Of a stretch of 64,000 bases of DNA, positions 15,469 to 41,068 are shown in pieces. Made by a program: the position numbers and the translations under genes. The notes under the pieces are model-generated. The model was not told the origin of the DNA, made no database searches, and saw nothing but the letters and a program-made list of their open reading frames with translations. Source of the DNA: Isoetes taiwanensis (lineage: Eukaryota; Streptophyta; Lycopodiopsida; Isoetales; Isoetaceae); NCBI GenBank assembly GCA_021234155.1, contig JAJEKV010000001.1, forward strand, positions 18,993,382 to 19,057,381. The letters run 5' to 3'. Position 1 is the first letter of the stretch, and every line of letters starts with the position of its first letter.

Positions 15469-17508
15469 CTACATCATAGTTCTCATCATTTTTTTTGCTA
15501 GTCTCAGCACTTCTTTCTTTGTCGTTTGTTCCTTTGCTGGAGACTTATCTTTTGCCTCTGCTTTGTCCTCTGAAATGTTAGCTAAAGTTACTTCTTTAAG
15601 CTCTGCAAAGGTGGCCTCCTCGTCTAGTGAGCTCGAGAAAGGAGGCTGTATGGGTCCTGCAATTTCTGTAAGACCGCTGGAAACTCTAGAACGTTTGAAA
15701 ATTTTTGGCAGGCGGCAGTGTTGAAGTGCTCCATGGTTCTCTTCCCGTCAAAACTCCAGTAAGCAACATGAAGGTACTCCACCTTGCTGAGTAACCTTGG
15801 TCCTCCACCATGATAATTGATGTTCATTTTGTACCTAGTGAAATATTAGAAGTGATAGAAAAAACAAGAAAACAGTTCGAAAACTAGAAACAAAGTAATC
15901 CTATTCTGGAATACGAGACGTAATTGAAGAGATTGGTAACTATATTCCAGAATAAGACTTACCAGACCAGGTTTTCATATCCTGCCTGAATTGGAGAACC
16001 GAAGTGGTTTTTAAAAGCTGATTCTGCCAAGCCTGTCTGCATGCTGGAATGGAACACAACTAGATGCCAATGCTTAGATGTTGTGATCTGCTTGATGCCA
16101 TCAATGAACACATTGAACTCAGAAAATTTGAAGGGCTGGTCATCGTATCGGCTATCTTTAATCTTAAACCCATATGGAAGATCTGCAAGAACCAAAGTGA
16201 GTGACTGCCTTTTGTTGGCCTCGTCATATTTCAGACAACATTCAATGTCGCACGCCTCCTTAAGCTCCAAGGAGTACACTGGCTTCTTCAGGTCCTCACT
16301 ATATTTTTCCTTGAAAATAACGTATTCCCTGTGCATAAACCTGATCTTGTCGACAAAGCTCATCTTTAATTTGTACTTGTTGTCAGCATCGTGGGTGTTG
16401 ACAACGATTTTTGCTTCTTCATCGGTAAGACCACAGTAAACAGCACACAGGACAGAGAGGTACCTTGGGTTCTTCTTCTCTTTGTAGAGTTGCCTTCTTG
16501 CCTTGAAGCTGTGATTACCTCCCAAGACATAGTGTGTGTAGGTGTTTGCATTTTCCCTGTCATAGTCTTGGGGGGTTGTGCACTACTCCCTGTCAACAAG
16601 GACAACAATTGGGGCCACATGAGCATTTGGATTGCTCCTTATTCTGTCCTTCAGGTTCCTCAAGTGATCGGCGTAGATTTTTCGAACCTGAAGTGGCCGT
16701 TGACCAGCTTCATTCTTAGGGGGTAGCCTTATGCATGTGACAGGAAGATAGATCACCTCTTGTACAAATTTTTCTCTATTTATTACCTCCATTCTTTCAG
16801 AGGTCTTATCAAGTTTCTTTTCCTTTATTGCAATCCCCGGTGCCTTACCTTTTCCTTTTCTTTTCTTTGTGCTTTCCTCGGGGATCTCTACTATTTCAAG
16901 CTGATGTACTTTCCTCTTCTTTTGTTCCTTAGCAGCTATGGTGTCTCTTGACCTGCTACGTTTCTTGGGCTGCTCCTCTATTTCTTCCTCGGAGCTTCCG
17001 TCCTTTTCCTGCCCAGAAGTACTAGCAGAAGGAGATTCTTCAGCTGCTTCCTCATGCTCGGACTCATTAACAGGAAAATCCTCGCTCTGACTGGAACAAA
17101 CCTGCCTAATAATGAAAGCTAGGCTTTGTTTGTTCCAGTAATGGGAAATGTACTTGTACAATGCCTGTGGTTGCACACTGACGATTCTGATGCTTGCAAT
17201 GTCGACAACAATGTAGCCCTGGGAGGTCTTGAAAGATAGCCTCCCCACCTGACCTCCTTGCCCAGCAACCTCAGAAACATCTTTTATTGTCCCAAGGTTG
17301 ACAAACTCGGAGTCGGCGTAGCGTTTATTCTCAGGGCTTTTGCAAAGGTGAAGAAAAGTCAGTGTGCTGTACTTGCCGCCTGCACCTCTGGTTACGAACC
17401 ATTGTGTTTGAAAATTTTTGTAAACTGCAGGCTCATCTGTATCCCTAGTCTGCTTCATTGGATGTGGCCGTTGGACAATCTTAAGCACTTTCTTTGGTGC
17501 CTTCTTGC
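15469..17508 (-). pseudogene. ParB-like / DNA methyltransferase-like protein, copy 1
   Basis: Visible exons are 17508-15963 and 15834-15469. They are joined across a 128-bp intron with donor GTAAGT and acceptor ACTAG; the phase matches. Order of domains: an N-terminal domain (WFVTRGAGGKYSTLTFLHLC... QGYIVVDIASIRIV); an acidic then basic linker (ESEHEEAAEESPS, KKRSRSRD, KKRKGKGK) likely to hold nuclear signals; a ParB/sulfiredoxin-like domain with LPVTCIRLPP, IVVLVDRE and YVLGGNHSFKARRQL; then LVLADLPYGF, a motif IV-like (D/N)PPY variant; then FPAVLQKLQDPYS. In this frame the protein ends at 15624 before any FxGxG motif. A second frame to 15469 is Lys/Glu-rich and codon-like. One in-frame TAG (16583-16585) interrupts the ParB domain. 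The 5' exon lies beyond 17509 and was not found. Role inferred: binding and possibly methylating DNA. Confidence 0.6.
15902..15953. repeat. Two TATTC-YR-GAATA palindromes in the intron of copy 1
   Basis: TATTCTGGAATA (15902-15913) and TATTCCAGAATA (about 15942-15953) lie inside the 128-bp intron of the ParB/methyltransferase-like gene. A third copy, TATTCCAGAATA, lies at about 17564-17575, just upstream of the first visible exon. They are one-mismatch versions of the TATTCCGGAATA palindrome in the array at 17.7-18.7 kb. Confidence 0.85.
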
Positions 17509-17737
17509 CTGCCAGAGTAATATTTAAAACAACACTGTCACGAGTAGAAAAGGAACAAAAACTGTATTCCAGAATAAGAATTGCTAATTTGTGTGTTAAA
17601 TGCAAGCAAAAAGAAGAAAAAACAGCCAGAAAAAAGTTGCACAAGCATGCTTTTTCGTGTTCTAATTTAGCTAAAAAGTGATTTGTGTAGGCTAAAAACA
17701 ACAAAAAAAGACACTATTTTCCAAAAATCCGAGATAC

Positions 17738-18690
17738 ATATTCCGGAATACACTTTACCTTTCGTTGGACGGGCAAAGTGTATTCCAAAATACACTTTGG
17801 CCTTCTTGTGTGAGCAAAGTGTATTCCGGACGAAGGGCAAAGTGTATTCCGGAATACACTTTGCCTTTCATTTACACACTTTGCCCTTCAGACGAAAGGC
17901 AAAGTGTATTCCGGAATACACATTGCCTTTCGCCTGAAGGGCAAAGTGTATTCCGGAATACACTTTGCCCATACACTTTGCCCTTCAGGCGAAAGGAAAA
18001 GTGTATTCCGGAATACACTTTGCCTTTCGCCTGAAGGGCAAAGCATTAGAGATTGAGATCTCATTTCATCCCCATAAGAATCCTCCAATGGAATGGCTAC
18101 CCACTATTAACTGCAATTAATGCAGCACCAACAACTTCATTGCTGTTGTTTTTCCCCCATAACTTTTGATCCACTTGTCAAAATGTTGCGGCGTTTGTTG
18201 CATTAGATGCGGAATGAAAAGATCTTTCCAATGATATATGGTTATGATGTATTTCAATATGGTCATATGCGTTAATCTTAAAAAAATATGATTTTTTGCT
18301 TATTTCTTATATATTATATATCGTAAAAGATGTATGAATGGGTTATCACTAGATAGATCTTGTGAAGACGAACCCATTGCTACAAAAAGTTTTTGAATCG
18401 GAGTTCTGGATCAAAAGTTATAATGAAAAAAATGATACTACAGAAGTTAGTTGCAGCTGCATTAATTACAGGCTGCCACATAATACTGGAATGAGATATA
18501 CTAGAGCTCTTCTCTTATTGGACAGTTTAAAAAGCTGACATGGCATTTTAAGCATCCCTTAATGGGACAAAATGTGATCTCATTTTTCCTCTAATGTGTA
18601 TTCCGGAATACACTTTGCTCACACAAGAAGGCCAAAGTGTATTCTGGAATACACTTTGCCCTTTCAACCAAAGTGTATTTTGGAATACAC
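17738..18690. repeat. Foldback block with TTCCGGAA palindrome arrays at both ends
   Basis: The left part (17738-18048) has at least five copies of the perfect palindrome GTGTATTCCGGAATACAC, often extended by AAA/TTT and GC/GC to 26-28 bp. They are joined by GGGCAAA and TTCGCCTGAAGGGC spacers that are themselves inverted. The right part (18597-18690) has three more, two degenerate. Between them, inverted arms share ATTAGAG...GAGATC, AATTAATGCAGC and ACTTTTGATCCA at about 18050-18200 and 18395-18590. The whole block is roughly symmetrical and could fold into a cruciform. It lies between copy 1 (minus) and the acidic-protein gene (plus), where a shared promoter region would be expected. Confidence 0.85.
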
Positions 18691-19175
18691 TTTTGCCCCA
18701 CAAAAGTAAACTAAAACAGAGACAAAAGACATACTATGTACTTTACATGCTTACCTGTTCATAAAAGAAGGAGGTCAGCACTTACGTGGTTTTTTCCAAG
18801 AGGGTTTGGGGTGTTTTTTTTTACGATCCCAATTATCGACATAGTGTGACGTAGCATCTTGGTATTAAATTGTAGGGTTAATTCGAATCATATCAGTATT
18901 GATGTTTAGGTTAAACACAAATCATATAGGTTTTGGAAAAAGGTTAAAAAAGGAATATTTTGGATATTTATAGTATTATTGCATGGCTCAAATTTTGAGA
19001 CATGCACATAATGGCATGTAATGATGGTTGATAGGACTAGAATTCGAATCATTCCCGATTTCTACGTCTAATCTGGCCTATATCTCTTCAGGCCTAGTTT
19101 GGCGCCCATTCTCCGCCCATTCTCCGCCCAATCTTCGCAAGAATCCTTCGCCCAATTTTGCTAGAATCCTTCGCC
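18691..19175. promoter_or_regulatory. Upstream region of the acidic-protein gene
   Basis: No ORF of note. Contains a direct repeat of CCCATTCTCCGCCCA at about 19105-19130 and two copies of GAATCCTTCGCC directly before the start codon, probably 5' UTR. No TATA box can be fixed with confidence. Confidence 0.3.
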
Positions 19176-20891: not shown

Positions 20892-20892
20892 A

Positions 20893-20925: not shown

Positions 20926-20982
20926 AGAATCTATAAATAATATATTGTAGAACCCGAAAGAGCTCCATTATTAAAGCATTCA

Positions 20983-23540: not shown

Positions 23541-23645
23541 CCTTTTCAACCTATAACACAAACCATTACGTTACACGCATTAAAATTAAATTCCCCCTTA
23601 CACCCCCTTTTGTTTGGGTGCATATTCACACGGGGGGTGACTCCG
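23541..23645. repeat. Dispersed repeat, inverted copy at 46.3 kb
   Basis: Reverse complement of 46291-46390 with few differences. Shared blocks include CCTATAACACAAACCATTAC, GCATATTCACACGGGGG and TTTTGTTTGGGTGC. The sequence AAAGCACAATTTCATTA about 210 bp further right also has an inverted match at about 46264. Confidence 0.8.
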
Positions 23646-24291
23646 GGCAACGAGAGCTGTTGGATAGGCATATTCACCCCTTATTCCTTAATCTACACCG
23701 TACACAAAGTTCCTCGTTTGTGGGGTATGGATATATAGAATTCGTTATACTGTATAACAAGATTTGTAAAATACTATAAGATTTCAGGCAATATACTATA
23801 TGGTGTTAATTTTGTACATGTAAAACATAATTATAAGGGCTCTCGCTGCCCTACAAAGCACAATTTCATTAAAATGAGAAATTTCGTGATTCCAATTAGG
23901 AACGAAAATCTTTTTAGTCCATTTTATGCCAATTTTTTGAGCAATTATGGCACCATTTAGAAAAAATATGCCTCTAAAACGTCATTTATTGGCGCCATTA
24001 AAAATACTAGCAGTGCATATAAAGAAGCTAAAGAAACGCAACATCACAAAATTAGTTAAAAATTCCAAATTCATAGATTTGCATATCAAAAATTTTTGCC
24101 ACAAAATGTGCAAGGACTCGAAGAGAGAGTCGTTTACAAAAAGGATTATTGTACAATTTAAATTACAATCACAAAGAAATTGTGGGCTCAAGATCGGGTT
24201 CACGTCCGCATAAGGATCGGGTTCTACATCGGGATCGGGTTCCGTGTATTGCGAGGGCCATGGCTAGAAGAAGCAACCATAGGATCTCCTC
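23646..24291. other. Non-coding stretch
   Basis: No gene. ATCGGGTTC recurs several times at 24190-24245 (imperfect short tandem). Confidence 0.45.
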
Positions 24292-26817
24292 AAAGCTCTC
24301 GAACATTTGTGGCGGTGAAATTGGGATCACTAAGAATGTCCGGATCGAATGGTGTGTTCTTGATCACATCATAGTCCACATCGGGTGGAGCTTGAGGGCA
24401 TCTCGGATTAAGTGGATCTCTGACTTCTTCAACAACAAAGCACCTTTTGTCTCAGAGGAACTAGCTGCGATGATAGGATTCGTTAGGGCGGTCAAGCCTA
24501 TCAAGAATTCCCCTTAGGCACTCCTGCTTAACCGGGTCACTTTCAAACACAATGCAAAATCTCTTATTCATCAATGAAGCCCGGCCAAAAGAACCACAGG
24601 AGAAGTAATCGAACACTCCCTGTTCTGGGCGGTCAGGTAGGAACATGTGGCAGGCCCCGGTGGTTTCTCATGATTATGTCCCCCGCAAGCCTTGCCGGTA
24701 TTACTGAATCGCTTTGTTGCGAGCTTTCCCGCCATAGCCTCGGTCTCCACCTCTTCGCTTCTTCATCGTTAGGGCACGAGGAACCGGTGGCGCTTCTTGA
24801 GGATGATCGTTGAAGGGGAATTTGAGGTCAATTTCATCGACAGGATGACCTGCAGTGGCCTGAATTTTTGTGGCGTACACTAGTGCATGGACCTCCTGAA
24901 CTCCTGGGGGAGCCGGATTTTTGTATTCGTCCTCATAGGTGCCAATAAAAACTACGGATCTGGAATCCGGATCATCCAACAGATGAAATCAAAAGTTATG
25001 CTCGGCCTTGCAAAGACCACTATCGAAAAGAATCGGTGTGGTGTTCTTCTGGTGTATTGAAGAAATTAGATAGTGTGGTTTTGTCCCACATTGGAAATAT
25101 GCCTCTAGTGTCGGGGCAATCAAGGATCTTTGTATGCGAGTGCAAACAACTTGCCCCTGGCGTTCTGTTAGTTCAACCGCGAAGCGAAGTCTTGTATCCT
25201 CTCTCTCGCAAGACAACATTGCGTATGAATCTTGCCAAAGGCTGGTGGCACGTTACGAAAACTCCTTCCTGCCCCTCCGGTTTCAACCCACTTACTATGC
25301 AAGGTGGCCATGGAAATGAGGTCGGTATCCTCGGCTCCGACAGATCTTAAGAACACCGAGATCGATTGAAGGATTTGAACTTCCTCGGAAAATTATCCTT
25401 CACGTATTCAAAAATCTCCTTCTTCAAGAAAGATATGGATCTTAGTGTCTTTGCCCTTGTCTTGAAGAATTGCTTACCCAGATAATCTTTGGTGACCTTT
25501 GACGAAGGTCTTCTCATCCAAGACTTCACGGAATGTAACCGGCCGGTCTTAAGTAGTCCATACCCCTCATGCACCTCAGGTAGGTCTGACTGAAGTAGTC
25601 ATGTTCTTTTGCCCAGTTACAGGTAATAGTTTGTCCCTTGTTGTCTTTTAGCTTGCTAGATTTCCACAAGTTCCATAGGGACATGAATAATCGAAAAATA
25701 TCCTCCGCATGAAGACCCATCGGGTTGAAATCTTTTGGATGCTTACCACGCATGGTAACTTCAGCCAAAGCCGATAACGGCTGGAAACAACAAGAAGTTA
25801 GCCTTCGGACATTCAATGAGAAAAGGCGCCCATGGGCATTATTGAAGAAAATGAAAGCCAATGGCGCTTATTTATCGAGCAAATGGCGCCACGGCGCCAT
25901 TTCCTCACGAAATGGCGCCGCGGCGCCATTTGCTAATCTTGCCAACAATTACAATATGTACCTTGTATGGTTACGGCGGATCGCCCGCGTCCCAATGGAT
26001 CAAGCTTCCCGCAAGATAGAGCATATTCTTTGCAGTGGGTTATGTTATCAATGAAGGGCTCTTTGAAAATAGTCTTCGCAGATGATATCATTGACTTCAC
26101 AACCGAAGCTGCGCAGCATTCCTCGTTCGATTGATCGTGCCAGATAACACTCGGCAATTCCGTTGAAGATAAATCTTTGACATTTGCTCTTGGGACTTTG
26201 TTGTGCCGAGTCTTCTACATACAAGCTGAGCAGCCATAACTGAATGATTGCCATTCACTATATAATAGTGCATCCCCATGAGGTCATCCTCGGTTTTCCA
26301 AGCGACCAGTTTGTTTGTGAGGGGATTGAATGGAATCACATCAGCGGGAGTGAACACTGGATGTGGGTCTCTCTGAAAGGACTCCACTAACGTTTTGACG
26401 TGCTCCATATTCCTTAGTCTAGATGTCAGATTTGCTGGCCCTTGATATAGTTTGAACACGTCTATTTTTTTTGTAAATGTGACACCCAGAGGAAACAGAT
26501 GCCGGTGATCGTAAATTTTATTCAGTGTATTCTCTGCCGTCTTTTCCTCTTCTGACCTTTCCACCTTAAGATTTGCAGGCACCTCTAGCAAGTGCTGAGC
26601 TATTCTTAATGTGAGCTTCTTTGGCTCTGGCTTCTTAATGGGGACCCTTTTGGCAGGTGTGACCGTAGGATCCGGGCTATTCCTTGGGCTCGGAGGTTCA
26701 CCACCACTTCTAGGACTTCCAGCAGGACTTGGAGTCCGAGTCGCTCTCCTTTGTTTTTTAGGTGTCCTCTCCTTCTCAGAGGTCTCCAGCCTGTGCTTCT
26801 TCTTCTTTTTCCCATCC
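24292..26817 (-). pseudogene. ParB-like / methyltransferase-like protein, copy 2, C-terminal part
   Basis: Minus-strand gene whose N-terminal half lies at 36897-37815, beyond the 10-kb insertion. From 26817 leftward: basic linker (GKKKKKHRLETSEK), Ser/Pro-rich stretch, then the ParB-like domain with HYYIVNGNHSVMAAQLV (26.24-26.27 kb). Next come a one-base frameshift, the donor CAAG/GTACAT at 25961, a 181-bp intron with two GGCGCC palindromes, and an exon from 25780 (MRGKHPKDFNPMGLHAEDIF). Frames then change repeatedly. DPDSRSVVFIGTYEDEYK lies at 24.9-25.0 kb. At about 24.5-24.6 kb GVFDYFSCGSFGRASLMNKR and FCIVFESDPVKQECLRGIL match the SAM-binding motif I region (DxFxGxG...E.D) of beta-class DNA methyltransferases, with substitutions. 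The last open frame ends at 24292 (DILSDPNFTATNVREL). Several frameshifts plus the insertion make it non-functional. Confidence 0.6.
25881..25931. repeat. Two paired-GGCGCC palindromes in an intron of copy 2
   Basis: The half-site AAATGGCGCC is followed by two central bases and its reverse complement, at 25881-25902 (centre AC) and 25910-25931 (centre GC). Both are inside the 181-bp intron 25781-25961. The same palindrome class is abundant at 37.9-41.1 kb, just upstream of this gene. Confidence 0.9.
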
Positions 26818-26842
26818 GGGTGAAAGCATGTTGTAGTGGAAC
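26818..26842 (+). repeat. Left terminal inverted repeat of the 10-kb element
   Basis: 25-bp perfect match to the reverse complement of 36872-36896. Confidence 0.85.
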
Positions 26843-27429
26843 AAAAACGTGCATTTTAGCACCACATTTTTGGGTGCTAAGTGTGGTGGGAACTACCGAA
26901 TTTGTAGTGGGAGAGGGAGTTATTTTTTCAAAAATACACATGATTACTTATTCAAAATTTTGTCCTTTCGGTCTTATTCGGGCTTATTCAAAGAACGCAT
27001 TACGTGCATCATTTTCCCTCAAAAACTCGATCACGCTCCCTTAATCCCAAGCAAGACCATTTTCGATTTTGAATTTTCATTTTCCCTCAAAAACTCGATC
27101 ACGCCCCTTAATCCGGCAAGACCATTTTTGATTTTCGGCAAGAAGATCGATCACTTAAATGGCTCGATCATACCGGACTTGAATGCCACGGGATACACCT
27201 ACAAGGAAATTTACAGGCAAGAAAAGCATTAAACGCCACACAAGAAGAAATCGAGTCTGTTTTGGGACCGAAAGTATTAGGAAAATCCACTTACGGTGGG
27301 TTGCATTCTAGATTCTGGGGATGCCCATGATTTCTCTGTTGTTTAGAATATTGTTTTGTTTCATCATGCAGGTTGAAGAATATGAGCAAGGAGAGGTATA
27401 ATGAATATATGTGCCTTTACAAAAAAAAT

Positions 27430-27719
27430 CACAGTGCGTGAAGTGTGCCCCGGGAGGCATGGCCTCACAGACTATGGCATATGCATTACCTTCACACAAA
27501 AAGGAAAAGAAATAAATTGGTTGAGTTTCCGCAATGATTAAAGAGAAAAGGGTCTGAAGCCTCTCCGTCCCAACGTAAGAGGAAGCATGCAATCATTTCA
27601 AATAGTGAGGAAGCAGAGCAACCTGCCACAGATGATGCTTCCTCTCTTGAAATGACTAGGCCACAATTCAAGCCTCCTCAAGCTGTAAGAAGAATCTCGG
27701 GGAAAATCACTGAAAAAAT
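27430..27719 (+). pseudogene. Decayed gene fragment inside the 10-kb element
   Basis: Codon-like stretches in two frames: TVREVCPGRHGLTDYGICIT followed by FTQKGKEINWLSFRND (about 27432-27541), then KGSEASPSQRKRKHAIIS and EEAEQPATDDASSLEM up to about 27719, where AAAATAG/GTACTT looks like a splice donor. The family is not recognised. A stop and a frame change separate the blocks. Confidence 0.35.
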
Positions 27720-29640: not shown

Positions 29641-29981
29641 CTGCTCATACCGGTGGCAATGACTATGTGAGTCCATCTAGCACACCAAAAAGGGAATTAT
29701 TTTCTACCCTCAAAGGTAACCAAGTCTTGTTTGATGCAATTGGGATATGTAGCTTACTTCTTCATCCCTACTTTGTAGATATAGATGTACAATGTGGTCG
29801 GTTAGGGGACAAGACACTCGCACCCTTCGAAAGCATTAGACACGATAGAAACTCGGCAAATCGGAAGATGCATCAGTTACGTGAAGCTCCGGACAAATCG
29901 GTAGATGTCAACAAATCGCAGGGTGCATCAAGTCAAGGTGCTCTAACCGACAAGAATCCGCCAGATCAACAGATGCATTAA
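29640..29981 (+). pseudogene. Methyltransferase-like fragment inside the 10-kb element
   Basis: The plus-strand frame contains HTGGNDYVSPSSTPKRELFS, GNQVLFDAIGICSLLLHPYF, then VDIDVQCGRLGDKTL, ending MHQLREAPDKSVDVNKSQG. The spacing V-D-x4-C-G-x2-G-x3-L parallels the motif I block of copy 2 (VFDYFSCGSFGRASL), and the preceding GNQ...L helix is typical of the region before motif I in beta-class enzymes. I infer a third, diverged methyltransferase-like C-terminus carried by the element. The acidic residue expected after motif I is not clear, so catalysis is doubtful. Confidence 0.35.
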
Positions 29982-30300
29982 GTCATGCTCCACACCACCA
30001 CGCCAAATCGCCAGATGCATCGGTTATGATCCGAACAAATCAAGCTGAATGTAAGTCACAAGGTAACTTCCAACCTTTTTGTGCCTGTCTTCTTTTTAAT
30101 TTGACCCATATAGTTACCGACCGTTAAATTTTTGCACTGGAAGTGTCTCGGAGAAAAAGCAAGAGCGTAATTCCAAGCAAAAGACACCTCCAAGACATTC
30201 CGGCGTAAGTTTCCATCCCCGCATCTAATAGATGCCGGGCGTAAGTTTCCAGCCCCGCACCAAGAAATGCCGGGGCGAAGTTTCCAGCCCCGCACCAACT
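29828..30300. repeat. Short repeats: AAATCGCCAGATGCATC series and 36-bp tandem
   Basis: AAATCGG(A/T)AGATG, AAATCGCAGGGTGCATC and AAATCGCCAGATGCATC recur at 29858-30022. From 30201 to 30299 a 36-bp unit with GTAAGTTTCCA(T/G)CCCCGCA is repeated three times. Confidence 0.7.
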
Positions 30301-30699
30301 CGGCCCATGCGTAAGACTACAAGGTTAAGCCCAATCCTCGCTTGTTTTTACTACAATAGAGTTCGGGTAGAAGCTATGAAAAGAGTGAGTCCATACCCAC
30401 CGCTAAAGAAGATGATGTTAAGTTGATCACACTTAACGTAACCAAGTGGGTAGTAACTAGACCAGTCGGGCCGAGTTCATAGATTGGTGCAAATGTAATT
30501 TTCATATAGCACTTTGGTCCAACTGCGTGGCTCAAAACTTGAGAGTCATAGTTAAGGGAGCATTGATGAAACACAAGGACAAATTCAAGTTCATATGGAG
30601 TCGGGATCATTGTATCAACACAAATTTATTTAACAAGAAAAGCCAATTTTTTTTGAAGCACTGAAAAAGGTCTACTTAATTTAATTTCCGTGTTTCACA

Positions 30700-31868
30700 A
30701 AAGAGAACGTGCTTTTCATTGATGACAGCAGATACAAAGGGTACCTCAATGCGCTAAAACACCATGATCATGTCCAAACAGCTTGTAGCCCCGACAGAGT
30801 AGATGGCAATTTCCTCATGAATGATCTAAAGGTTTGGCTTCAGTGGGTTGTCAAGGCGTGGAATGTGCAAAGTTATGTCGAAAAGCAACAAAATGTGAAT
30901 ATGTTTGACACCGAGAGTCAAATTTGTATTAATATGATGAAAAACATAGAACTAAAGCCTAGAAATAGTATTATTGTGTATATGATGTAACCTCTCTTGA
31001 CTTTTTAATATAAACAAAGTTTTACTTCAATTGTTCATTTCTTGGCTATTTCAATGTTCCTCAAGGTTTTCAATGATCTTCCATTTGTCGAATGTAAACT
31101 TACACCACCAAAGACGCAGGACTCAGCAGTTGTTAAGAGCCACATCCCACCGCAACACTTGCCACTTGAAGTGTTTAAAGGACAGCAGGAGCCTCTTGTG
31201 CTTGATCAAGAGGCAATCGAGAATATTGGAGAAAAGTAGGGATTGGTTCGGCCGGGATGCGGGATAGTCCATTTCTTCATGAGGTTAGTAATTTAATATA
31301 AACAACTCAGATTTGAAGTCTTCGTTGTTTCTTAAATCATCTTGTTTTACCGCACCTTTGACTTTGGCGTGTGTATGCACCAATTACGCAGATCAAGCAT
31401 GACATGGAACAGAGGTTCCATTTCATGGATCCGCCATTTACACATTCATTGTCGAACGAGCTTGCTTCAAAGGACAAACTGTTGCACCCTCAACTTGCAA
31501 TTTTCGAATGTACCATTCGCCAAAGATGTTATCAGCAAAGACCGACGATGTATGTCATTGTAGGTCTTGGAGGTCACCGCTTAAATGTCACCGTGTGTGT
31601 ACCATTTTGACAAACTTAGAAATGTACAAGGGCTCCGAGCCCCGTCATGAGTTTTGTTGAGGATGCAAACACAAAATTCCCTAAGCACCATAAAGTCTGC
31701 GCCACAAGAAAATTACAAGTTCCCCCCACTCACCGATTGCCGGTCGTGGTGGTCCCCGCTATATGTGTCTTCAGAAAGAAAGTTGTGGCTGCAAGAATGC
31801 GAGACTTGGACATACTATCCCAATGCAAGGTGAGTTCAGAATTTGAAGGTATTACTCATCCAATGTGA
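30700..31868 (+). pseudogene. Unrecognised multi-exon gene remnant in the 10-kb element
   Basis: Four plus-strand frames look coding and lie close together: 30709-30990 (LNALKHHDHVQTACSPDRVD, VWLQWVVKAWNVQSYVEKQQ); 31042-31239 (FNDLPFVECKLTPPKTQDSA); 31371-31610 (IKHDMEQRFHFMDPPFTHSL, after an acceptor-like ACGCAG); and 31647-31868 (LQVPPTHRLPVVVVPAICVF). They may be exons of one element gene. No domain recognised; composition is normal protein-like and the strand is shared with the methyltransferase-like fragment. Confidence 0.35.
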
Positions 31869-32180
31869 GGCCTGATATGTTTGTTGAGTGGTGTACCAAT
31901 TTCTAGTTTGCGAGCTGTTGGACACGTTGTAATGATGATTGATGTTGTGAAGCATAGTTGTCGTGTAGTAATGAAGTCGAGGTTGATGGATCAATAGATC
32001 TTTACTTGTAATCACATGTTTGTATTATTGTAACCAAAGAGGTTATTCTTGTAACCTATTCTTTCATTGACACTCTAATGTACATTGTTGTATACTATTG
32101 TATACAATAGACTTTTCTGGCTGACCAGAGCAACACTGTGGTGGAGTTCAAATCTCCAGAAGAAATTGATGTATTCAAAG
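31869..32180. other. Spacer, nothing recognised
   Basis: AT-rich sequence between the gene remnant and the satellite. Confidence 0.4.
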
Positions 32181-32880
32181 ATTCATGACAATGTGGTGTT
32201 ACATGTCGTGATAGATGTGGTGATGCAAATGGTGCATGTGGTGAATCATGTGGTGCATTTGGTGAACCATGTGGTGAATCATGTGGTGAATCGTGAGGTG
32301 GCATGTTGGAGCTTACGCGGGCATGTTTGACTTTCATTGACCAACATGTTTGGTGATGCAAATGGTGCATGTGGTGAATCATGAGGTGTATTTGGTGAAT
32401 CATGTGGTGAATCATGTGGTGCATCGTAGGTGGCATGTTGGAGCTTACGCGGGCATGTTTGAGCCACCTTGGCATGTTGGAGCCTAGGTGGCATATTTGA
32501 GCCACCTTGGCATGCTTGAGCCTTTACATGACCTTTGTTACATGTTTGACTTTCATTGACCAACATGTTTGGTGATGCAAATGGTGCATGTGGTGAATCA
32601 TGAGGTGCATTTGGTGAATCATGTGGTGAATCATGTGGTGCATCGTAGGTGGCATGTTGGAGCTTACGTGGCATGTTTGAGCCACCTTGGCATGTTGGAG
32701 CCTAGGTGGCATATTTGAGCCACCTTGGCATGCTTGAGCCTTTACATGACCTTTGTTACATGTTTGACTTTCATTGACCAACATGTTTGGTGATGCAAAT
32801 GGTGCATGTGGTGAATCATGTGGTGCATTTGGTGAATCATGTGGTGAATCATGTGGTGCATCGTAGGTGGCACGTTGGAG
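32180..32880. repeat. 218-bp higher-order satellite of GTGGTGAATCAT-type units
   Basis: The marker TTGACTTTCATTGACC recurs at 32327, 32546 and 32764 (spacing 219 and 218 bp). Each unit has GTGGTGAATCATG and GGTGCATTTGGTG submotifs, then GGCATGTTGGAGC(C/T)TA(G/C) and TTGAGCCACCTTGGCATG. Low-complexity ORFs on the minus strand (His/Asp/Ser/Pro-rich) follow from this. Confidence 0.85.
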
Positions 32881-33262
32881 CTATTCATGAATGGCCAATT
32901 CAGGATAGATATATATATATTTTTTTTTTATGTTTTTTAGAAAATAAAATAATGGTCCTTTCGAGGTTATTATTAGTTGCCTACTAAATCTTTAGGAATA
33001 AAGATGCTAATGGTACTAAATCTTAAGGAATAAAGATGCTAATGGTACGAAATCCTAAAATCGTAGCCTACGAAATTAATTTCACGCCAGCCTTTATAGG
33101 CTATGGTCGTGAAGGAGAAGCATCGTCCAATTCCTTCCAACAGGAATGTCAAAGCGGCCGCCGCCGCTCTCCTCCCCTCCAGCCTCTCCCTCTCCCTCTC
33201 CCTCTCCCTCTCGCCTCCCTCCCCCCTAAGCCGGAAACCGCTTTCAATTCCTTTGGCAATGT

Positions 33263-33676
33263 GTGATGGCCGGTTATGAAATAGGATCTTGGCCAAATTA
33301 CCATTTCTTCGGAGTCCGAACACGAGAGCCCGGTGCAGAGAGCCAGAGCCCCGAGAGCTCTGAGAGTCTGATTTCGACCTCTTTCAAAGCTCAAGATCTT
33401 TCGGAGCTTTCAGAAGAGGTGGAATCCTCCTCTAATTTCGATTCCTCTGATGAAGCTTCTTCTGATGATCAATTTGATTCCCAAGATTCTGATAACGAAT
33501 CGAGCGAAGACCAGACCGAAGAAGAAGAAGAAGAGGTAGAAGACTTAAGAAGAACATGAAGTTTTTTGAACTCCAAAATGTTCTACGTGAGTAAGTAGCA
33601 TGCATGCATTAAATTTTTGCTTTCTTTTATGTATTCTAAACTAATTTTCTTCACTTTTTCTTACAGATGAAGCTTG
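33263..33676 (+). pseudogene. Small acidic Ser/Glu-rich protein (copy 2), one frameshift
   Basis: Homologous in layout to the gene at 19.2-19.6 kb. The first exon encodes ESLISTSFKAQDLSELSEEV, SNFDSSDEASSDDQFDSQDS and EEEEEEVEDL. One frame change near 33555 is followed by KNMKFFELQNVLR, a short intron (donor GTGAGT at 33597, acceptor TTTTTCTTACAG at 33666) and a tiny second exon ending DEA-stop. Copy 1 likewise ends with a hydrophobic LN before a tiny acidic second exon. Upstream a (CCCTCT)n run at 33183-33215 sits in a possible Pro/Ser-rich N-terminal frame. It is carried by the 10-kb insertion, so the family travels with mobile DNA. Confidence 0.5.
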
Positions 33677-33699
33677 AAGTCCCGGCTGTGCCACCTTTT

Positions 33700-34140
33700 T
33701 TTTTCTTTTGATCAAGTTAGTCTACAGGCCTTTTGTGCCTTTGTATTTTTTTTGAAAAACAGATGGTATATAGGCCTTAGTGCCTTCATTTGATCTCACC
33801 CCCTTGTGAACTCACCCCTTGTGATACAGGCCTTAGTGCCTCTTTGTAATATATGATGGCCTTAGTGCCTTTTTGAATATATGATGGCCTTGTGCCTTTT
33901 TGAACCTTGTGTAAATTTATAATTCTGAAGTATTCTCGTATCTTTCGTTTTTAACATATGATGGCCTTGTGCCGACTGTAATCCAGGCCTTGTGCCTTTT
34001 GTTTAATCGAGAAAATAGTTTATAATGGCTTTGTGTCTTGTGTAAATTTGTGCCTTGTGTAAATTTCTAATTCTGTTTTACCACAGGCCTGTTTCTAAAA
34101 ACAGATACCACAGGCCTTAGTGCCTTTCTTTGATCTCAAT
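33700..34140 (+). repeat. 3' region with at least eight AGGCC-TTAGT-GCCT hairpin-like repeats
   Basis: GGCCTTAGTGCC or GGCCTT(T)GTGCC recur at about 33727, 33771, 33828, 33860, 33886, 33965, 33987 and 34110, mostly followed by T-rich sequence (TTTTTGAA, TTTGTT). Equivalent in position to the CCTCCGGG repeats downstream of copy 1. Confidence 0.7.
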
Positions 34141-34477
34141 TCAGGGACCTAATTTGGGATCCATATATTGCTGTCACCAAAATCAGTCAAGATACTATCA
34201 GGAATCTGAGAGCCATTCCATTTTCTGACCGGGTCAAAAAATGGTCAATGCCCCTGGCTGATTATGGTGAAATCTGTGGTGAAAGCCGTGGTGAAAACTG
34301 TGGTGAAGCTGTGGTGATGCAAACGTTGTTTTTATATTTCAAAGGGAGAAAAATACATATGGAAATCTACCATACCGTAGAGAATAGTTCATACTTCTTA
34401 TGAAATGAAGTATGCAGAAAAACCCTGAGCTTCTAGTATTATCAAAATGCATTAGAGATGACATACAGTTACTGGGC

Positions 34478-36795
34478 CTCAATCAGATCCTGCATTGTGA
34501 GATCTGTAACTCTACTATTTCCAAGTACGTTCAAGACTTCATCAAGTGTTTCTGCTGAATAGTTGGTGTAATCCAGCAACACTAAAACATGTGCTTTCGT
34601 TTTACGCCCCACTTATGATACTGATTCATAAAGTATTGTCTTCGGGTTGTTGTGTCTCCATGCATCCGCCCGTCGAGCACTTTTTAATGGCTGAAGCATG
34701 GATCATTTCCTGCTTTAGTTGGATGAACATATCCTCCTCCTCAAGCTCGGGAGAGCCGAGAACTCATCCTCGTAATCATACACCACCCCGAACCCCTGGC
34801 GGCCGCACCAGCTGTTAAGTCTCCCCGACCATGAGTGTAAACAACATCATCCGTGGTAAAACAACATCTACTACAAAGAAAGGCAACCGCCTATCACCGC
34901 TTTGGCTTCTAATTCTTTAAGCCCATCAGGAATTAACCTATGTTTTAAGCCTAGAATACCTCGAATTCATGGGTCCCTCGCTCCTCTAATATCCGCCTCA
35001 TTTCTCGGTTTATTTGCTCCAAGATAGGTCCTACCAGATCATCGTGCATTTGAACCGGGTGAAATTGTTTGTGCTCGTGTTCTCCTTCGTTTTCTTCCGC
35101 CATAGCCGGATTGTGATAAGCCAATGTCGCATGCAAAACTAGATTTATGGTTTTCCCCAATGCTTCCTCGTGACCCGACTTTTGAATGATTGACCTTGCA
35201 TTTGATGTGACAGATTTCCAATGATTCTCTGTCCCATTCTCATCCATCCTTAATGTAATTTTTTCGTGTGTCACTTTCACCACCCATCCAATTAAACAAA
35301 GTTGAGATTTCTATTAAACATAGCATATATTACAGACATTCATCTTACACCTCGTTATTCACCACACTAGGCACCACATAGAATATATTACAAAGATTTA
35401 TTTTACACCATATTTTTAACCACACTAGGCACCACACGGCACCACACTAGGCACCACACCATGTTATTCACCACACTAGGGACCACATAGCATATATTAC
35501 AAAGATTTATTTTACACCATGTTATTCACCACACTAGGCACCACAAAGCGTTATATTTAGAGCATTTATTTTACACCATATTTTTCACCACACTAGGCAC
35601 CACATAGCATATATTACAAAGATGTATTTTACACCATGTTATTCACCACACTAGGCACCACAAAGCATATATTGACAAAGATTTATTTCACACCACGTGC
35701 CTCACCACACTAGGCAAAGACATATCATATATCACAAAGATTAATAGGCACCACACACCACAAGCAATCACTAACCACAAAGAACCACATATCACAAGCA
35801 ATCACTAACCACATACCACATTAACAATAAAAATGTGGTGAAGATGAAGAAATGAAATAACCTGTGATTCTTCCAGATAGTGAGTGGCATGATCCTCTCT
35901 TACATTTCGTTCCAATCTTCTGAACTTAACATCCTTTGCATTTGGAGAGACCCTACTTTTTCGGTCCAAAATTGCTGCACAAGTTCTATGACCTGCTCTT
36001 CTAACTCTTTTGTACAAAACCCATTTCCCCCCTTTGCAATCTATCTCTTCCCTCTTCAATTTTGCTTTGGTAAGATTCCTAGGATGAACACCCAAAGATA
36101 GTTTACCAAAACCCCGAAAGCAATCGACGGGATTAGCACTTTCGGTATTAATGCTTCCTCTTACGGCCATAGCAAGGCAACTACTCTTGGTCGCTAAACT
36201 GTCATTGCTGTTAGACTTCTTCACAAGTTGAATGGAAGCCCTGAGGTTGCTGACCACAATGCTCTTGGCTTGCAAATCTTTCAGCTCTTCGCCAAGTACG
36301 CTGTCCATTGTGTCATCCTGCAGATAATCTAGTAAAACCTCTTTCTTATCGCTGTTAGACAAGCCTTTAGTGGTGCTATGAAATGAAGATAACAATTTTA
36401 ATACCATCCGGCCTTTTGGTAGAGGCCGTTCGTGGATCCTCCCTCTGCTGTTGCAATTTTTGCTAATTCTTCTTTAGCTTCCCTTTTGTCTTTTCCTTTG
36501 GCGCCTTTTATGATCCCGTTCTTGTCTCGAGTTCTCTTTCTCTTATCTCGTGGGCGATTTGCTTCCAAATTAAATGATTGAAGGTATGAACCGAATTGAT
36601 CCACAACCGGATTAAAGCGCCATAGCCGTGGTGCTTCGTGAAAGGCGCGGTGGGTCGTGGGTTTAGAAATCGGTTCGGTGGAGATTGGAATGGGACGGGT
36701 GGCGAGGAAATTGGAAATGGGACGGGTGGCGAGGGAATCGGGTTGTTGCAGTTCAGGAAATGATTGAATCCGAGCAGTACATCACTAGGCGCCAA
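34478..36795 (-). pseudogene. Candidate transposase gene of the 10-kb element
   Basis: Minus-strand frames near the right TIR look like one gene. A 5' part at 36604-36398 is basic (PRDKRKRTRDKNGIIKG) and runs with a frame change into 36407-35865 (VLLDYLQDDTMDSVLGEELK, WVLYKRVRRAGHRTC, VSPNAKDVKFRRLERNVRED, HATHYLEESQ). After the 60-bp repeat array comes 35283-34951 (ENHWKSVTSNARSIIQKSGH, MHDDLVGPILEQINREMRRI). A final frame ends at 34478 (VLVLLDYTNYSAETLDEVLN, TDLTMQDLIEAQ). The VSPN...HATHYLEESQ segment recalls DNA-binding/entry regions of large DDE transposases, which is from memory and weak. Stops and frameshifts suggest it is inactive. Confidence 0.35.
35345..35720. repeat. 60-bp tandem repeat (CACCACACTAGGCACCAC)
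   Basis: About six copies of a 60-bp unit with TTATTCACCACACTAGGCAC, CATA(G)CATATATTACAAAGA and TTTATTTTACACCAT. Placed inside the transposase candidate, probably in an intron. The CACCAC core is the complement of the GTGGTG motif repeated elsewhere in the element. Confidence 0.85.
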
Positions 36796-36871
36796 ACAAA
36801 CATTTAAAATCGCACCACAAATTTGATATCTCCCACCACATTTTTAGGAGGACAGGGGGGGCACCCAAGGT

Positions 36872-36896
36872 GTTCCACTACAACATGCTTTCACCC
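36872..36896 (-). repeat. Right terminal inverted repeat of the 10-kb element
   Basis: Reverse complement of 26818-26842. Followed directly by ATCC. Confidence 0.85.
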
Positions 36897-37815
36897 ATCC
36901 ATTTCCTCTGTCTCCACTTCCTGCCTCGCCTTTCCTTCCTTCTGCCCCTTGCCTTCCCTATCCTTTTCTTTCCTTTCCCTTTTCTTTTCCTTCTTTTCCT
37001 TCTTTTCTTTCTCTTCCTTCCTTCTCTTCCTGCTCTTCCTCTTCCTTCTCTTCCTCCTCTTCCTTCTCTTCCTTTTCCTTCGCTTGCTTCTTTTCCTTCT
37101 TTTCCTTATCTGGATTTTTGCGATCCTTTCTCTTAACTTTCCTCTTGCCCGCCGCCTTTCCTTCCTCAGTTTCCTGGATAACATCCTCAGTAGAAGATGA
37201 GGAGTCTTTGTCGGCTGCAGGTGTCTCCTTAGGTTGTCTTGTCTTCTTCTTGCTAACTGTTCTTAGCCAGGCGGTGTCCACAATGGCGGGTAGTTTCTGC
37301 TGGGCTAATGCCTTGACAACGAATGAAGGCGAGTTTTTCGACTCGTTCATCCGATTGCGAAGAATCATAAAGCCCCTCAAGATTTCTTGTGGGCCTTTGA
37401 TGTCAGCTTCTTCAAAAGTATGCAATGACGGCAATCAACCTTCGCTTCTTCGCCGAACCAGCTACATTTGCAATGCTAGCAGACATTACAGTGGGATCAT
37501 AAAACTTCCAGTCCACATAGTAGACAATTATTCTCTGCTTCAAAGTATCCTCACAGACCACCCGGATCCAATCGTCGCGACCGCTCTTGACAACCAGCTT
37601 CATGTTGACCAAGATACCTGGCTGGTAAATTCCGGCTGTTTCTGTGTCTGTCTCCCTTATAAGGAGGCAGAGCTCTCTTCTGCGGTCTCCTTTCGAGCCT
37701 GTAGCAGTAGAGGGGCTCACCCGCATTACTTCCATGCACGGTACATATGTCCGCCGGCATGATAGTCCGGGTCGGATTGAAATTGTGTTTTCGCACGTAA
37801 CATAGCTGCAACAAA
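36897..37815 (-). pseudogene. ParB-like / methyltransferase-like protein, copy 2, N-terminal part
   Basis: Minus strand. An acceptor-like TTTGTTGCAG precedes about 37803. The first frame gives LVNMKLVVKSGRDDWIRVVC and IIVYYVDWKFYDPTVM. A one-base shift near 37425 leads to ADIKGPQEILRGFMILRNRM, FVVKALAQQKLPAIVDTAWL, then an acidic and very Lys-rich linker (pyrimidine-rich on plus, 36940-37140). The layout (N-terminal domain, acidic then basic linker) mirrors copy 1. At 36897 the frame EVETEEMD meets the right end of the 10-kb insertion and continues at 26817. The purine-rich linker also carries a frame change. Confidence 0.55.
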
Positions 37816-37845
37816 GGGGCATCAGTAACAAAGAGGCATCAGTAA

Positions 37846-38460
37846 ATGGTTTTAACAAGCAGGCAGACAATCAGTTGTGGTAGGCAAATGGCGCCGTGGC
37901 GCCATTTGCATCTGAGTCCAGTGCATAAGCACATGGAGGCGGTTCGTATGCATGTCTTCTTCGTTTGGTCGCTTGAGAGGCCTCACCCGGTTAAAACCCT
38001 CCCTTCGCAATATTCGAGGAAGATTGTTCGAAGGGGAGTGGCTCGGACTGGGTGGAGGCACCTGCGACTCGTAGGAGAGAGCACTACAGAACGCAACACA
38101 ACGAGTCAATGCTGATACATATGTGACTGTCTCTGTCGTCTGCTTAGTCGTCTGCTTTTAACAAGCAGGCAGACCAGATGACCAGGCAAATGGCGCCATA
38201 GCGCCATATGCATCCGAGTTCAGTGCATAAGCAAATGGAAGCAGTTCGAATGCATTTCCCTGCGTTTGGTCGCAGAGGCCTCCACCCAGTCCGAGCCCCT
38301 CCCCTTCCAAATATTCGCGAAAGATGGTTGGAAGGAGAGTGGCTCTGACTGGGTCGAGGCACCTGCGATTTGCAGGAGAATACATATGCGAATGACTCCA
38401 TTAGTGTTAATGGACTGGACGCAGATAAAAATGGCGCCATGGCGCCATTTGCCAACAAGT
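37846..38460. repeat. 309-bp tandem duplication upstream of copy 2
   Basis: Two units start TTTTAACAAGCAGGCAGAC (37849 and 38156). Both carry a GGCGCC palindrome, GCATAAGCA(C/A)ATGGA, GAGGCCTC, TATTCG(A/C)G(G/A)AAGAT and TGGCTC-GACTGGGT blocks. Confidence 0.8.
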
Positions 38461-38764
38461 CCCAAATGTATGCTAATAGACATCAAATAGCGCCATGGCG
38501 CCATTTGCCAACAACAAGGCCCTATGGTAAGCTAATAGACATCAAATGGCGCCATGGCGCCATTTGCCAACAACCCTATGGTAAGCTAATAGACATCAAA
38601 TGGCGCCATGGCGCCATTTGCCAACAACAAGGCCCTATGGTAAGCTACCAGGCATCCTAAAGTAAGCTAACTCCTAAAGTGCACTCAGGCATCCATGGCG
38701 CCATTTGTCAACTATAAGACCCTAAACTGGCTACCAGGCATCTAAATGGCACGGTGGCGCCATT
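37886..38764. repeat. Array of paired-GGCGCC palindromes 5' of copy 2
   Basis: AAATGGCGCC plus two bases plus GGCGCCATTT, or one-mismatch forms, at 37886, 38188, 38429, 38485, 38544, 38598 and 38743, with a half copy at 38693. Three copies (38429, 38544, 38598) are perfect 22-bp palindromes with CCATGG at the centre. From 38470 the copies are 54-59 bp apart in a tandem unit containing GGTAAGCTAATAGACATC. Confidence 0.9.
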
Positions 38765-39480
38765 TAGCCAAAACAAAACAATGCAAGTAGATGACATACA
38801 TGTCCCTTGAGGTGCGCTAGCCGCTGTCTCCACATTCTGAGGAGCTCCAGAATTGTCGATTTCCATTTCGAGCGCCTTGAATTTGGTCCGAAAACTGGTG
38901 TTAAGTACGTCAAAATCCGTACGTTTAAAAAACGTTTTTTAAGATTTTTTGAAGATTTTTAAAATTTTTGGAAAAAATCTTTAAAAACATATTTCATATA
39001 AAATACGTTAAAAATCTTTAAAATCTTTAAAATCCTTAAAAATCCTTAAAAATCCTTAGACTGTGGTTTTTTTTTTATCTAAATATATGATATTCTTGAA
39101 CATATTCATCTTTGTATATGAAATTCTTAAATTTTTTAACCTCTACAATAATATTTTTCTCAACTTTCTTAAGAGGTGCATGGCAAAACTGCTATGATAT
39201 CTTTGTACTTGAACTTAATAGTTTGTAACAGCAGTATAAGCTTCCGATTTACTTGTTGGCATGCTATGTCATGTAACTTGTAGAAAAAATGTGCATTTTA
39301 ATAGTAGCAAACATGTCCAATAAAGCAGCCCAAAGAATGTGGAATTTGTTTATTTTTTAATTTTGACCATACCAAATCATAAAAATCCTTTAAAAAACGT
39401 GAGGATTTTTATAGAGGTACTTTAAAAATAAAAAACAGGTTTTTTAATAACATTGGTGTGGCTTGATGTGTTGAGGCGCT
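38765..39480. other. AT-rich spacer
   Basis: AAAATCCTTAAAAATC-type short repeats at 38935-39060; no gene. Confidence 0.5.
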
Positions 39481-39860
39481 GAACTGTGGGGAAATGGCGC
39501 CAGAAAACACGGAAAAAAAGGACGAAAAAGGGTTGCTTTAGGCGCTGGGCACTAGGCGCTGGCGGCTAGGCGCTGGGCGCTGGCGGCTGAGGTCGAGGCG
39601 CTAGGAGCTGGAATCGAAAACGAAAAAACCGAATGAGAAGCTTCAGAAAAACAATTAGGCATAAGAAACTTTGGGCACCGCCGTTCATTGTAATTACCAG
39701 CGCCAACTACGCCCGCGGGCGGGCCAGCGCCCATGCCCGCCCATGCCCGTGGCGGTCCAGCGCCTATATGCCCGGGCCCCCATGCCCGCCCATGCCCCAT
39801 GGCGGTCCAGCGCCCATGCCAGCCCGTGCGTGGCGGTCAGCGTATATGCCGCCACAATTT
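39481..39860. repeat. GC-rich repeat cluster (GGCGCTGG, GCCCATGCCC)
   Basis: TAGGCGCTGG(G)C units at 39539-39605 and GGCGGTCCAGCGCC plus CCCATGCCCGCC units at 39715-39845. Much more GC-rich than the flanks. One half palindrome, AAATGGCGCC, lies at 39493. Confidence 0.7.
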
Positions 39861-40033
39861 GAAATTTGAAATTCGAATATTTCCTGCCTTGCGCCTTTAA
39901 ATTTGAACATAAAATTCAAAATTCCCGCCGCCCGAAATTAGCGTAAAGTCAAAATTCCCGCCCGTAAATTGAAATTTGACTGCCACCTGTCCAAATTTGA
40001 ATAAATTAAAACTTTTAAAATTGTACTTTGCAT

Positions 40034-40396
40034 TTAAAGCTCCCTCTTTGTAAGCTGCTCACACTTAATGCGACCATGCCCGGCCTTGAGCGTTTTCGTT
40101 ACCGCGGTTTGGTAGCTTTTCGAATCCGCTGTTAGGTCTTTTGCCTTCGCATAAAAGGCGCTTCTTTTCTTAAGCGCGGCGAAACTTTTTGCAAAGCATG
40201 CGTCTTTGTCGGCGCTTTTCTTCTTGGCTCGCGAAATCAGGTGATTCTTGGGCTTTCTTCTTGGCGAATTCTTCTTGGCGCTTTCTTCTTGGCGAATCCT
40301 TCTTTCTCGCTTTCTTGGCGAATCCTTGGCTTTCTTCTTGGCGCTTTCTGCTGGGATCAGCTTGATTTTCCTGTTCCATCTATCGCTCCGGGACAT
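40034..40396 (-). CDS. Hypothetical Lys/Arg-rich protein
   Basis: ORF of 120 residues. The first half is repetitive and basic (ESAKKKAKDSPRKRE, encoded by CGCCAAGAA-type repeats). The second half is more complex: DACFAKSFAALKKRSAFYAK, KAGHGRIKCEQL. It could be a nuclear basic linker exon of another ParB/methyltransferase-like relative (copies 1 and 2 have such linkers), or a repeat by-product. Nothing specific is recognised. Confidence 0.25.
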   Translation of the reverse strand: MSRSDRWNRKIKLIPAESAKKKAKDSPRKRERRIRQEESAKKNSPRRKPKNHLISRAKKKSADKDACFAKSFAALKKRSAFYAKAKDLTADSKSYQTAVTKTLKAGHGRIKCEQLTKREL

Positions 40397-40683
40397 ACCA
40401 CTATGGATCTATCTAATATCAAGTAAGTCCACTTTTTTCCGGTATGAATTTCGTTTCTATTCTTCGCCATGTGTATAGCGTGTTCAAATGCTAATATGAA
40501 TGCTGCTAGGAAACTAAGAACCTTGGTTTCAATTGCAAAGTTGGCATGGGGTGCCCATGTTATGCATGCCTGCTCTTATTGACACATATACAGCAATGGG
40601 AGCAAGAATGCATAACATAGGCACCTCGTGTAGATTTTGTGATGGAGCTAAGCCAAATCGCCCCATGTGACCAACTTGGATCA

Positions 40684-41068
40684 AATGGCGCCAGGGCGGC
40701 ATTCTATTCCAAATACACCCTTATGGTGTGTTGGTCTTAATGGCTCCATAGCGCCATACGGTTGAACATGGTGCACGGCTGAAATGTAAATTTGGAGCCA
40801 AATGGAGCAATGGCGCCATTTGGTCGAAACGGTGCACTTGGATCAAATGGCGCCATGGCGCCATTTGATCCAATTCATATAACGGCAGTGCACTTTGGAT
40901 CAAAATGAAAGCCATGGCGCCATTTGATCCAAATTCACACGTGTGAATTTGGATCAAATGGCGACATGGCGCCATTTGATCCAAGTGCACCGCTTTCAAC
41001 AAATGGCCATTGGCTCCAAATTTAGACCAAAATTTATTCTTTTGTACTAAATGGCGCCATTTTCGCTT
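40684..41068. repeat. Second array of GGCGCC palindromes with longer nested palindromes
   Basis: A perfect 36-bp palindrome spans 40838-40873: TTGGATC + AAATGGCGCC + A and its reverse complement. At about 40926-40961 another 36-bp palindrome is centred on CACACGTGTG and flanked by TTTGATCCAAATT. Half or degenerate copies at 40684, 40740, 40799, 40910, 40965 and 41049. Confidence 0.9.

Follow-up and report, generated by a model that had tools for sequence, protein, structure and literature searches.

We analysed a 64-kb stretch of Isoetes taiwanensis DNA (the window; positions 18993382-19057381 in the 1.66-Gb assembly), in which two diverged genes with a ParB-like motif, here called copy 1 and copy 2, sit in DNA transposons and are accompanied by long perfect palindromes. 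In the genomic copies that we sampled, each protein clade had a palindrome class of its own, and the classes were not exchanged between clades. Judged from its sequence, the palindrome looks like a label by which the element recognises itself. We favour, with modest confidence, the reading that these transposons encode a DUF7869 transposase together with a ParB-like/methyltransferase-type protein that would recognise the palindromes of its own family.

Palindrome class and protein clade

The window contains 13 perfect palindromes of at least 18 bp, compared with 0.3 expected from base composition; six have the TTCCGGAA core, five the GGCGCC core and two another core. This confirmed the original prediction that palindromes of both classes lie beside the two ParB-type genes. 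When palindromes of at least 14 bp were counted, 26 were found against 4.9 expected (11 with TTCCGGAA, 6 with GGCGCC and 9 of neither class), and 24 of them fell inside three transposon stretches totalling 29.4 kb. Because the remaining 34.6 kb held only two of the 26, both of other kinds, general noise was ruled out as their source, and within the window both classes are confined to elements. Reversed-pattern controls, with 0 occurrences in comparison to 2585 and 957 for the real patterns, also argue against noise. The GGCGCC class is found within copy 2 and upstream of it (25910-25931 and 38429-41062), and the longest palindrome (46 bp, 40918-40963, centre CACGTG) lies amid its members. The TTCCGGAA palindromes had been tied to copy 1, which is correct for the array at 17836-18613; however, a further set at 52410-54861 is far from any recognised ParB gene. 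These palindromes occur there because they are inside 52046-55382, an element of the copy-1 family.

For genome-wide sampling, a search with the copy-1 piece 15962-16582 reported 151 matches, and the best 150 of 4549 first-look candidates were scored; with the copy-2 piece, the best 150 of 4982 were scored. For each clade the 30 best-matching loci were cut out of the 150 scored candidates. The clade-1 loci contained 143 palindromes of at least 16 bp, centred on TTCCGGAA (124), ATTCGAAT (12) or CAAATTTG (7), and in the clade-2 loci GGCGCC was present in 72 of the 76 palindromes of this length and TTCCGGAA in none. Counted by locus, a TTCCGGAA palindrome of at least 14 bp occurred in 29/30 clade-1 loci (exception L017) and a GGCGCC palindrome of at least 14 bp in 28/30 clade-2 loci (exceptions L044 and L058). 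The clade-1 site core, with CpG decay allowed, flanked the ParB part on both sides in 27/30 loci, and GGCGCC flanked the clade-2 ParB part in the same way in 26/30.

Two additional clades, unseen by the earlier reader of this DNA, were discovered by family and protein searches that were independent of the palindrome. After a methyltransferase-family search (best 150 of 1443 candidates) three stretches were examined. Two of them belonged to clade 1, L074 having the site and L075 no more than decayed sites, and the third, L076, represented clade 3, with a ParB part 52% and a methyltransferase exon 42% identical to clade 1. It has the motif IADIPYGF, no TTCCGGAA, and three occurrences of GTATGAATTCATAC in the intron that follows the ParB exon on its 3' side. 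The same palindrome was present three times in the near-identical L077 and once in the 81%-identical L080, that is, in 3/3 clade-3 loci. A search with the clade-3 ParB part gave, among the 150 matches listed, about 140 at 61-69% identity; two of these were read, the clade-4 loci, and both carry CGGTATAAATTTATACCG, spaced mostly by 28 bp, in the same intron (2/2).

Exact sites were then tabulated as loci with the site over all loci in clades 1, 2, 3 and 4, with L071 and L080 excluded:
Clade-1 site: 32/34, 0/34, 0/2, 0/2
Clade-2 double site: 0/34, 31/34, 0/2, 0/2
Clade-3 site: 0/34, 0/34, 2/2, 0/2
Clade-4 site: 0/34, 0/34, 0/2, 2/2

The loci missing their exact own site were L017 and L075 in clade 1 and L058, L063 and L070 in clade 2. 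Two clade-1 loci, L072 and L073, had been picked by palindrome; when these and the two window copies were omitted, the values became 29/31 and 30/33. The half-site TGGCGCCA was found once each in 4/34 clade-1 loci, and the full sites showed no cross-occurrence. The class-clade match gave Fisher p values of 4e-17 and 5e-16, which are overstated because the copies are related. The expectation that each gene would have its own palindrome class was therefore upheld on the sampled copies, and it extends to both additional clades.

The association persisted in diverged members. The clade-2 loci L067, L068 and L069 retain their class at 59%, 60% and 52% identity, respectively. L069 also has a symmetric variant, AAATGGAGCCATGGCTCCATTT, beside its GGCGCC sites, a possible site shift in progress. 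The clade-1 site is kept in L072 (60-64% over the N-terminal and ParB parts) and L073 (51% over the N-terminal part), both of them loci fetched by palindrome. Among the matches listed for contigs C1-C64, ParB/methyltransferase exons had an exact clade-1 18-mer no more than 1.5 kb away in five of six cases (C1, C23, C50, C61 and C62, but not C29), and among those for contigs C1-C223, clade-2 ParB exons lay as close to an exact 22-mer in five of eight (C28, C88, C120, C179 and C223, but not C35, C93 and C135). Of the first palindrome clusters listed, three were examined (C2, C3 and C4): two had ParB and transposase pieces of the family, and the third, L071, had only a 171-bp match to the 3' end of the element.

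The sites of clades 1, 3 and 4 have the frame GTAT-N6-ATAC in common, with the centres TCCGGA, GAATTC and AAATTT, respectively, and the clade-2 site is unrelated and lacks this frame. Since the frame is common to the related clades and not to the distant clade 2, site likeness runs with protein likeness.

Transposons carrying the genes

The transposon was revealed when copy 1 was compared with three other genomic copies (stretches of 16-18 kb each). The features of the window are as follows:
15434..18700, minus strand: element 1, truncated, with the clade-1 ParB-methyltransferase gene and upstream palindrome array (blastn against copy C)
15472..15845, minus strand: 3' methyltransferase remnants of copy 1; the DAFSGSGTT segment of copy C is missing
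15962..16582, minus strand: GGNHS motif and motif IV-like LADLPYGF of copy 1
16586..17713, minus strand: N-terminal region and start of the ParB-like region of copy 1 (aligned with 13 other copies)
17836..18613, no strand: clade-1 palindrome array with GTGTATTCCGGAATACAC core, of the TTCCGGAA class, adjoining copy 1
23543..46388, no strand: element 2, 22.8 kb, with inverted repeats 23543-23640 and 46292-46388 (97% over 98 bp)
24464..25598, minus strand: C-terminal methyltransferase-like part of copy 2, over several frames, with a weak methyltransferase relation
25878..25931, no strand: clade-2 palindromes 3' of the ParB part
26100..26855, minus strand: ParB-like part of copy 2 with NGNHS
36961..37870, minus strand: N-terminal part of copy 2 (clade-2 profile matches, E 2e-70 and 3e-48)
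37878..38780, no strand: clade-2 palindrome array upstream of the N-terminal part
40680..41070, no strand: clade-2 palindrome array closer to the transposase
43073..43711, plus strand: DUF7869 transposase-like frame of element 2 (Pfam PF25273, E 1.5e-32)
52046..55382, no strand: non-autonomous clade-1 family member, 3.3 kb, with inverted repeats and the 4-bp duplication TCAC

The best-kept copy, copy C, measures 8.4 kb between inverted repeats of the AACAAGATTGCATATTAAACGGGAG type, and no matching target duplication was seen at the inverted-repeat ends. Its transposase frame matches DUF7869 (E 4.5e-32) and is encoded on the strand opposite to the ParB-methyltransferase gene. The latter begins with a 483-aa frame comprising an N-terminal region, a basic linker and a ParB-like part with GGNHS, followed by frames with IADLPYGF and then DAFSGSGTT, of which the last matches the Pfam family N6_N4_Mtase (PF01555, E 1.2e-16). 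A stop lies between the IADLPYGF and DAFSGSGTT pieces, and the exon borders of the clade-1 gene were inferred from sequence. Copy 1 itself is broken by an in-frame stop at 16583-16585 and has lost the segment with methyltransferase motif I, and no terminal inverted repeat was found for element 1 in a search allowing up to 3 substitutions. The member at 52046-55382 has no recognised ParB or methyltransferase frame.

In element 2 the DUF7869 frame is likewise opposite to the ParB gene, with the GGCGCC palindromes between them, and no clear target-site duplication was found for this element. Copy 2 had been described as one gene at 24.3-37.8 kb. The NGNHS gene is indeed present there, but it is also broken, being spread over several frames and split between its N-terminal and ParB parts by a 10-kb nested element at 26818-36896; L067 and L068 have this part of the gene in one continuous frame. 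The nested element has a perfect 25-bp inverted repeat and the 4-bp duplication ATCC, and a ParB-methyltransferase was looked for in it and not found. It carries CACCACATGTGGTG-type arrays at 28.1-28.5 kb and a protein piece at 30685-30987 (plus strand) with no Pfam match and 1402 first-look candidates in the genome, and possibly represents a further element that has a palindrome class to itself.

The Sola superfamily of DNA transposons has a Sola transposase and a 4-bp target duplication. The transposase here matches DUF7869; 4-bp duplications were found for the 52-55 kb member and the nested element, whereas copy C and element 2 showed no clear one. A further DUF7869 transposase fragment is present at 1384-1620 (E 4e-13).

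The gene pair is divergent in clades 1 and 2. The palindrome array in the intron 3' of the ParB exon occurs in all four clades, and an array between the two genes in clades 1 and 2. This arrangement bears on the possibility that it is the DUF7869 transposase that binds the palindromes, the ParB-methyltransferase being a passenger co-varying by linkage. The elements of clade 1 and those of clade 2 encode separate DUF7869 transposases, and members without a recognised ParB gene (the 52-55 kb member and L071) keep their palindromes, as such a role would predict. However, the arrays lie inside the element, in the intron of the ParB gene and at the divergent promoter, away from the element ends, and a transposase site needs no repeated place within the intron of an accessory gene. 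We regard this explanation as rather unlikely. That the repeats act as RNA, forming hairpins or serving as sources of small RNA, would be compatible with their location in introns and probably transcribed leaders; since gapless palindromes should be poor hairpin formers and arrays also lie between genes, we consider it highly improbable.

Neighbouring clade-1 sites were 41 or 42 bp apart in 164 of at least 206 neighbour pairs (L001-L030, L072 and L073). This is about four DNA turns, which may place the sites on one face of the helix. A second palindrome, TGCACAAATTTGTGCA, was present in 7/30 clade-1 loci (L015-L019, L026 and L029), at a constant position about 180-195 bp upstream of the GGNHS match.

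Protein relationships, catalysis and site decay

The original prediction assigned ParB-like and methyltransferase-like motifs to both genes, and the GGNHS and NGNHS motifs were located. In clade 1 the ParB-like motif and an amino-methyltransferase domain are combined in one gene (GGNHS, DLPYGF, DAFSGSGTT, PF01555), whereas no DPPY-type motif was seen in the readable copies of clade 2. The ParB parts of the two clades are alignable only by profile (hhalign probability 80.6, E 1.3e-5, 112 columns). The C-terminal part of clade 2 had no Pfam methyltransferase match; in a single comparison it was collinear with the clade-1 methyltransferase over 65 columns (probability 4.0, E 0.011). In this comparison the clade-1 DLPYG position corresponds to LDTRG or, in an alternative alignment, APLPVS, and FSGSG corresponds to FSCGS; in copy 2, FDYFSCGSFGRASL occupies the place of the clade-1 DAFSGSGTT. 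If the relation is real, the catalytic motif would be missing under either alignment, and otherwise clade 2 lacks a methyltransferase altogether. PF02195 (ParBc) was absent at E ≤1 from the ParB-like frames, an HTH_Tnp_Mu_2 match in L067 (E 0.1) was below the cut-off, and searches for protein homologues gave no match at E ≤0.01.

Since clade 2 keeps its palindromes without a recognisable catalytic motif, binding would be a likelier common role across the clades than methylation. Thus, of the earlier proposal that each protein reads and marks its palindrome, the reading is tenable and the marking is doubtful as a general function, clade 2 having neither a DPPY-type motif nor a Pfam methyltransferase match.

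A restriction-modification or segregation system had also been considered and is not supported, as the genes are located in DNA transposons; moreover, no nuclease or partition family, ParA partner included, was recognised among 27 frames scanned with Pfam, no search aimed at any of these having been made. A selfish addiction system, in which the palindrome is methylated and unmodified sites are attacked, could draw on the N6_N4 methyltransferase of clade 1 and on the resemblance of the palindrome cores to restriction sites. The lack of a nuclease in the scanned frames, the presence of palindromes in clade 2 without recognisable catalytic motifs and the restriction of both classes to elements within the window make it very improbable.

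Site decay was assessed on 292 clade-1 sites, collected at up to 4 mismatches, and 164 clade-2 sites. The TATT and AATA bases of the clade-1 site showed 1-5 changes each, and bases near the palindrome centre changed less than outer ones, a pattern that the 4-mismatch collection favours. At each CpG position of the clade-2 site, 2-7 transitions were counted. Outside the sites, the loci of the two clades had similar CpG observed/expected ratios (0.68 in clade 1 and 0.62 in clade 2, 29 loci each). Compensatory covariation of the arms was rejected: the arms of the same site matched at 12.7 of 22 positions in comparison to 11.1 in shuffles, arms taken from neighbouring sites agreed just as closely (14.1 vs 13.3), and the core had no symmetric excess.

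Neutral tandem repeats, amplified by chance in intron and promoter, inherited and read by nothing, would explain the fixed periods of the arrays (41-42, 59/29, about 115 and 28 bp) and the absence of symmetric covariation. They would not explain why perfect palindromes occupy the same intron position in four clades, why the sites persist at 52-60% protein identity or why three clades keep the GTAT-N6-ATAC frame, and the lower rate of change near the centre, with the bias just mentioned, points in the same direction. We judge this alternative improbable.

Proposed self-recognition and its relation to known systems

Several observations weigh against self-recognition by a ParB-type protein. Pfam scans of the clade-1 frames returned only DUF6551 (E 0.02-0.03, below the cut-off) and those of clade 2 no ParB-like match, so that the putative ParB assignment is based on the motif, on clade-to-clade similarity and on published precedent. 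At the central CpG of the clade-1 site, 53 C-to-T and 62 G-to-A changes have accumulated over the 292 sites; many copies were probably once cytosine-methylated, as these transitions indicate. Symmetric double changes within the site were not in excess in either clade 1 (10 vs 16 in shuffles) or clade 2 (16 vs 13). In addition, the sample comprises 3 loci for clade 3 and 2 for clade 4, the copies of any one clade are related and therefore not independent (L076 and L077 being almost identical), and L070, a clade-2 locus at 64% identity, is devoid of palindromes of the clade-2 class. The greatest weakness lies in the transposase, which is linked in clades 1 and 2 and could be the site reader instead.

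In the mechanism that we propose, the ParB-type protein would bind the palindrome as a dimer, and the arrays, placed both in its own intron and at the divergent promoter, would restrict its action to its own family. As a result, the element might be kept expressed against host silencing, or its expression might be tuned. In clades 1 and 3 the protein may in addition place a methyl mark on the site (N6-adenine or N4-cytosine); that of clade 2 would probably only bind. New clades would emerge as array and protein diverge together. We more tentatively suggest a modular self-recognition code in a eukaryotic transposon superfamily, for which the chances seem to us below even: a ParB-methyltransferase protein of bacterial derivation would read a palindrome with a constant outer half-site (GTAT..ATAC) and a clade-specific central hexamer, each lineage regulating itself alone and the enzyme of one branch having become a pure reader with an entirely new site.

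In bacteria, ParB binds palindromic parS sites. The present system resembles ParB-parS in its ParB-like motif and palindromic sites, and differs from it in the transposon setting, the lack of a ParBc Pfam match and the absence of a ParA partner from the frames scanned.

A closer counterpart is the Ectocarpus element Sola1-1_Ec32. According to the passages that deal with it, its accessory gene and similar algal genes combine ParB-like and N4/N6 methyltransferase parts in one protein, the gene is coded opposite the transposase in a DNA transposon, and the accessory protein may, in the authors' view, bind and modify its own transposon (PMC12477816). The clade-1 gene resembles it in combining the two parts, and copy C and element 2 in having the gene opposite the transposase in an inverted-repeat element. 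Unlike in those passages, palindromic and clade-matched sites are found here (PMC12477816), along with thousands of first-look candidates and at least four clades, one of them without recognisable catalytic motifs. This paper was the sole direct match for the combination among the matches listed in open-licence literature (PMC12477816).

For the VANC proteins of Arabidopsis VANDAL elements, which act in anti-silencing, the sections consulted describe family-specific tandem motifs upstream of the transposase gene and in accessory-gene introns, with both motif and protein differing by family; the motifs are short (YAGTATTAY, AGTTGTCC/AC) and in one orientation, and the VANC domains are DUF1985/DUF287 (PMC5735166). 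An accessory protein and family-specific arrays in non-coding parts of its own element are common to both systems, whereas the long palindromes and the ParB-methyltransferase-type protein are features of the present one. Pfam scans of these genes gave no DUF1985 or DUF287, and the transposase is DUF7869, not the MULE transposase of VANDALs. Because the setting is like that of VANC and the protein type like that of the Ectocarpus accessory gene, we favour a self-recognising regulator that would possibly be anti-silencing, with optional self-methylation; the self-directed silencing control suggested earlier remains a good reading.

If true, transposons that escape or control silencing by reading their own sequence would be known from a second case, independent of VANC and built from bacterial ParB and methyltransferase parts. 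The four protein-site pairs, three with a common frame, would form a natural specificity series for DNA reading and offer possible tools for sequence-directed epigenome control. The proteins are also a possible source of 6mA or 4mC in the I. taiwanensis genome.

Elsewhere in the window, a tandem array with a period of about 105/213 bp and units 80-90% alike occupies 61056-61722. The stretch 20983-22849 is pyrimidine-rich, with GC skew to -0.46 and AT skew to -0.42, and its frames of up to 624 aa are probably spurious.

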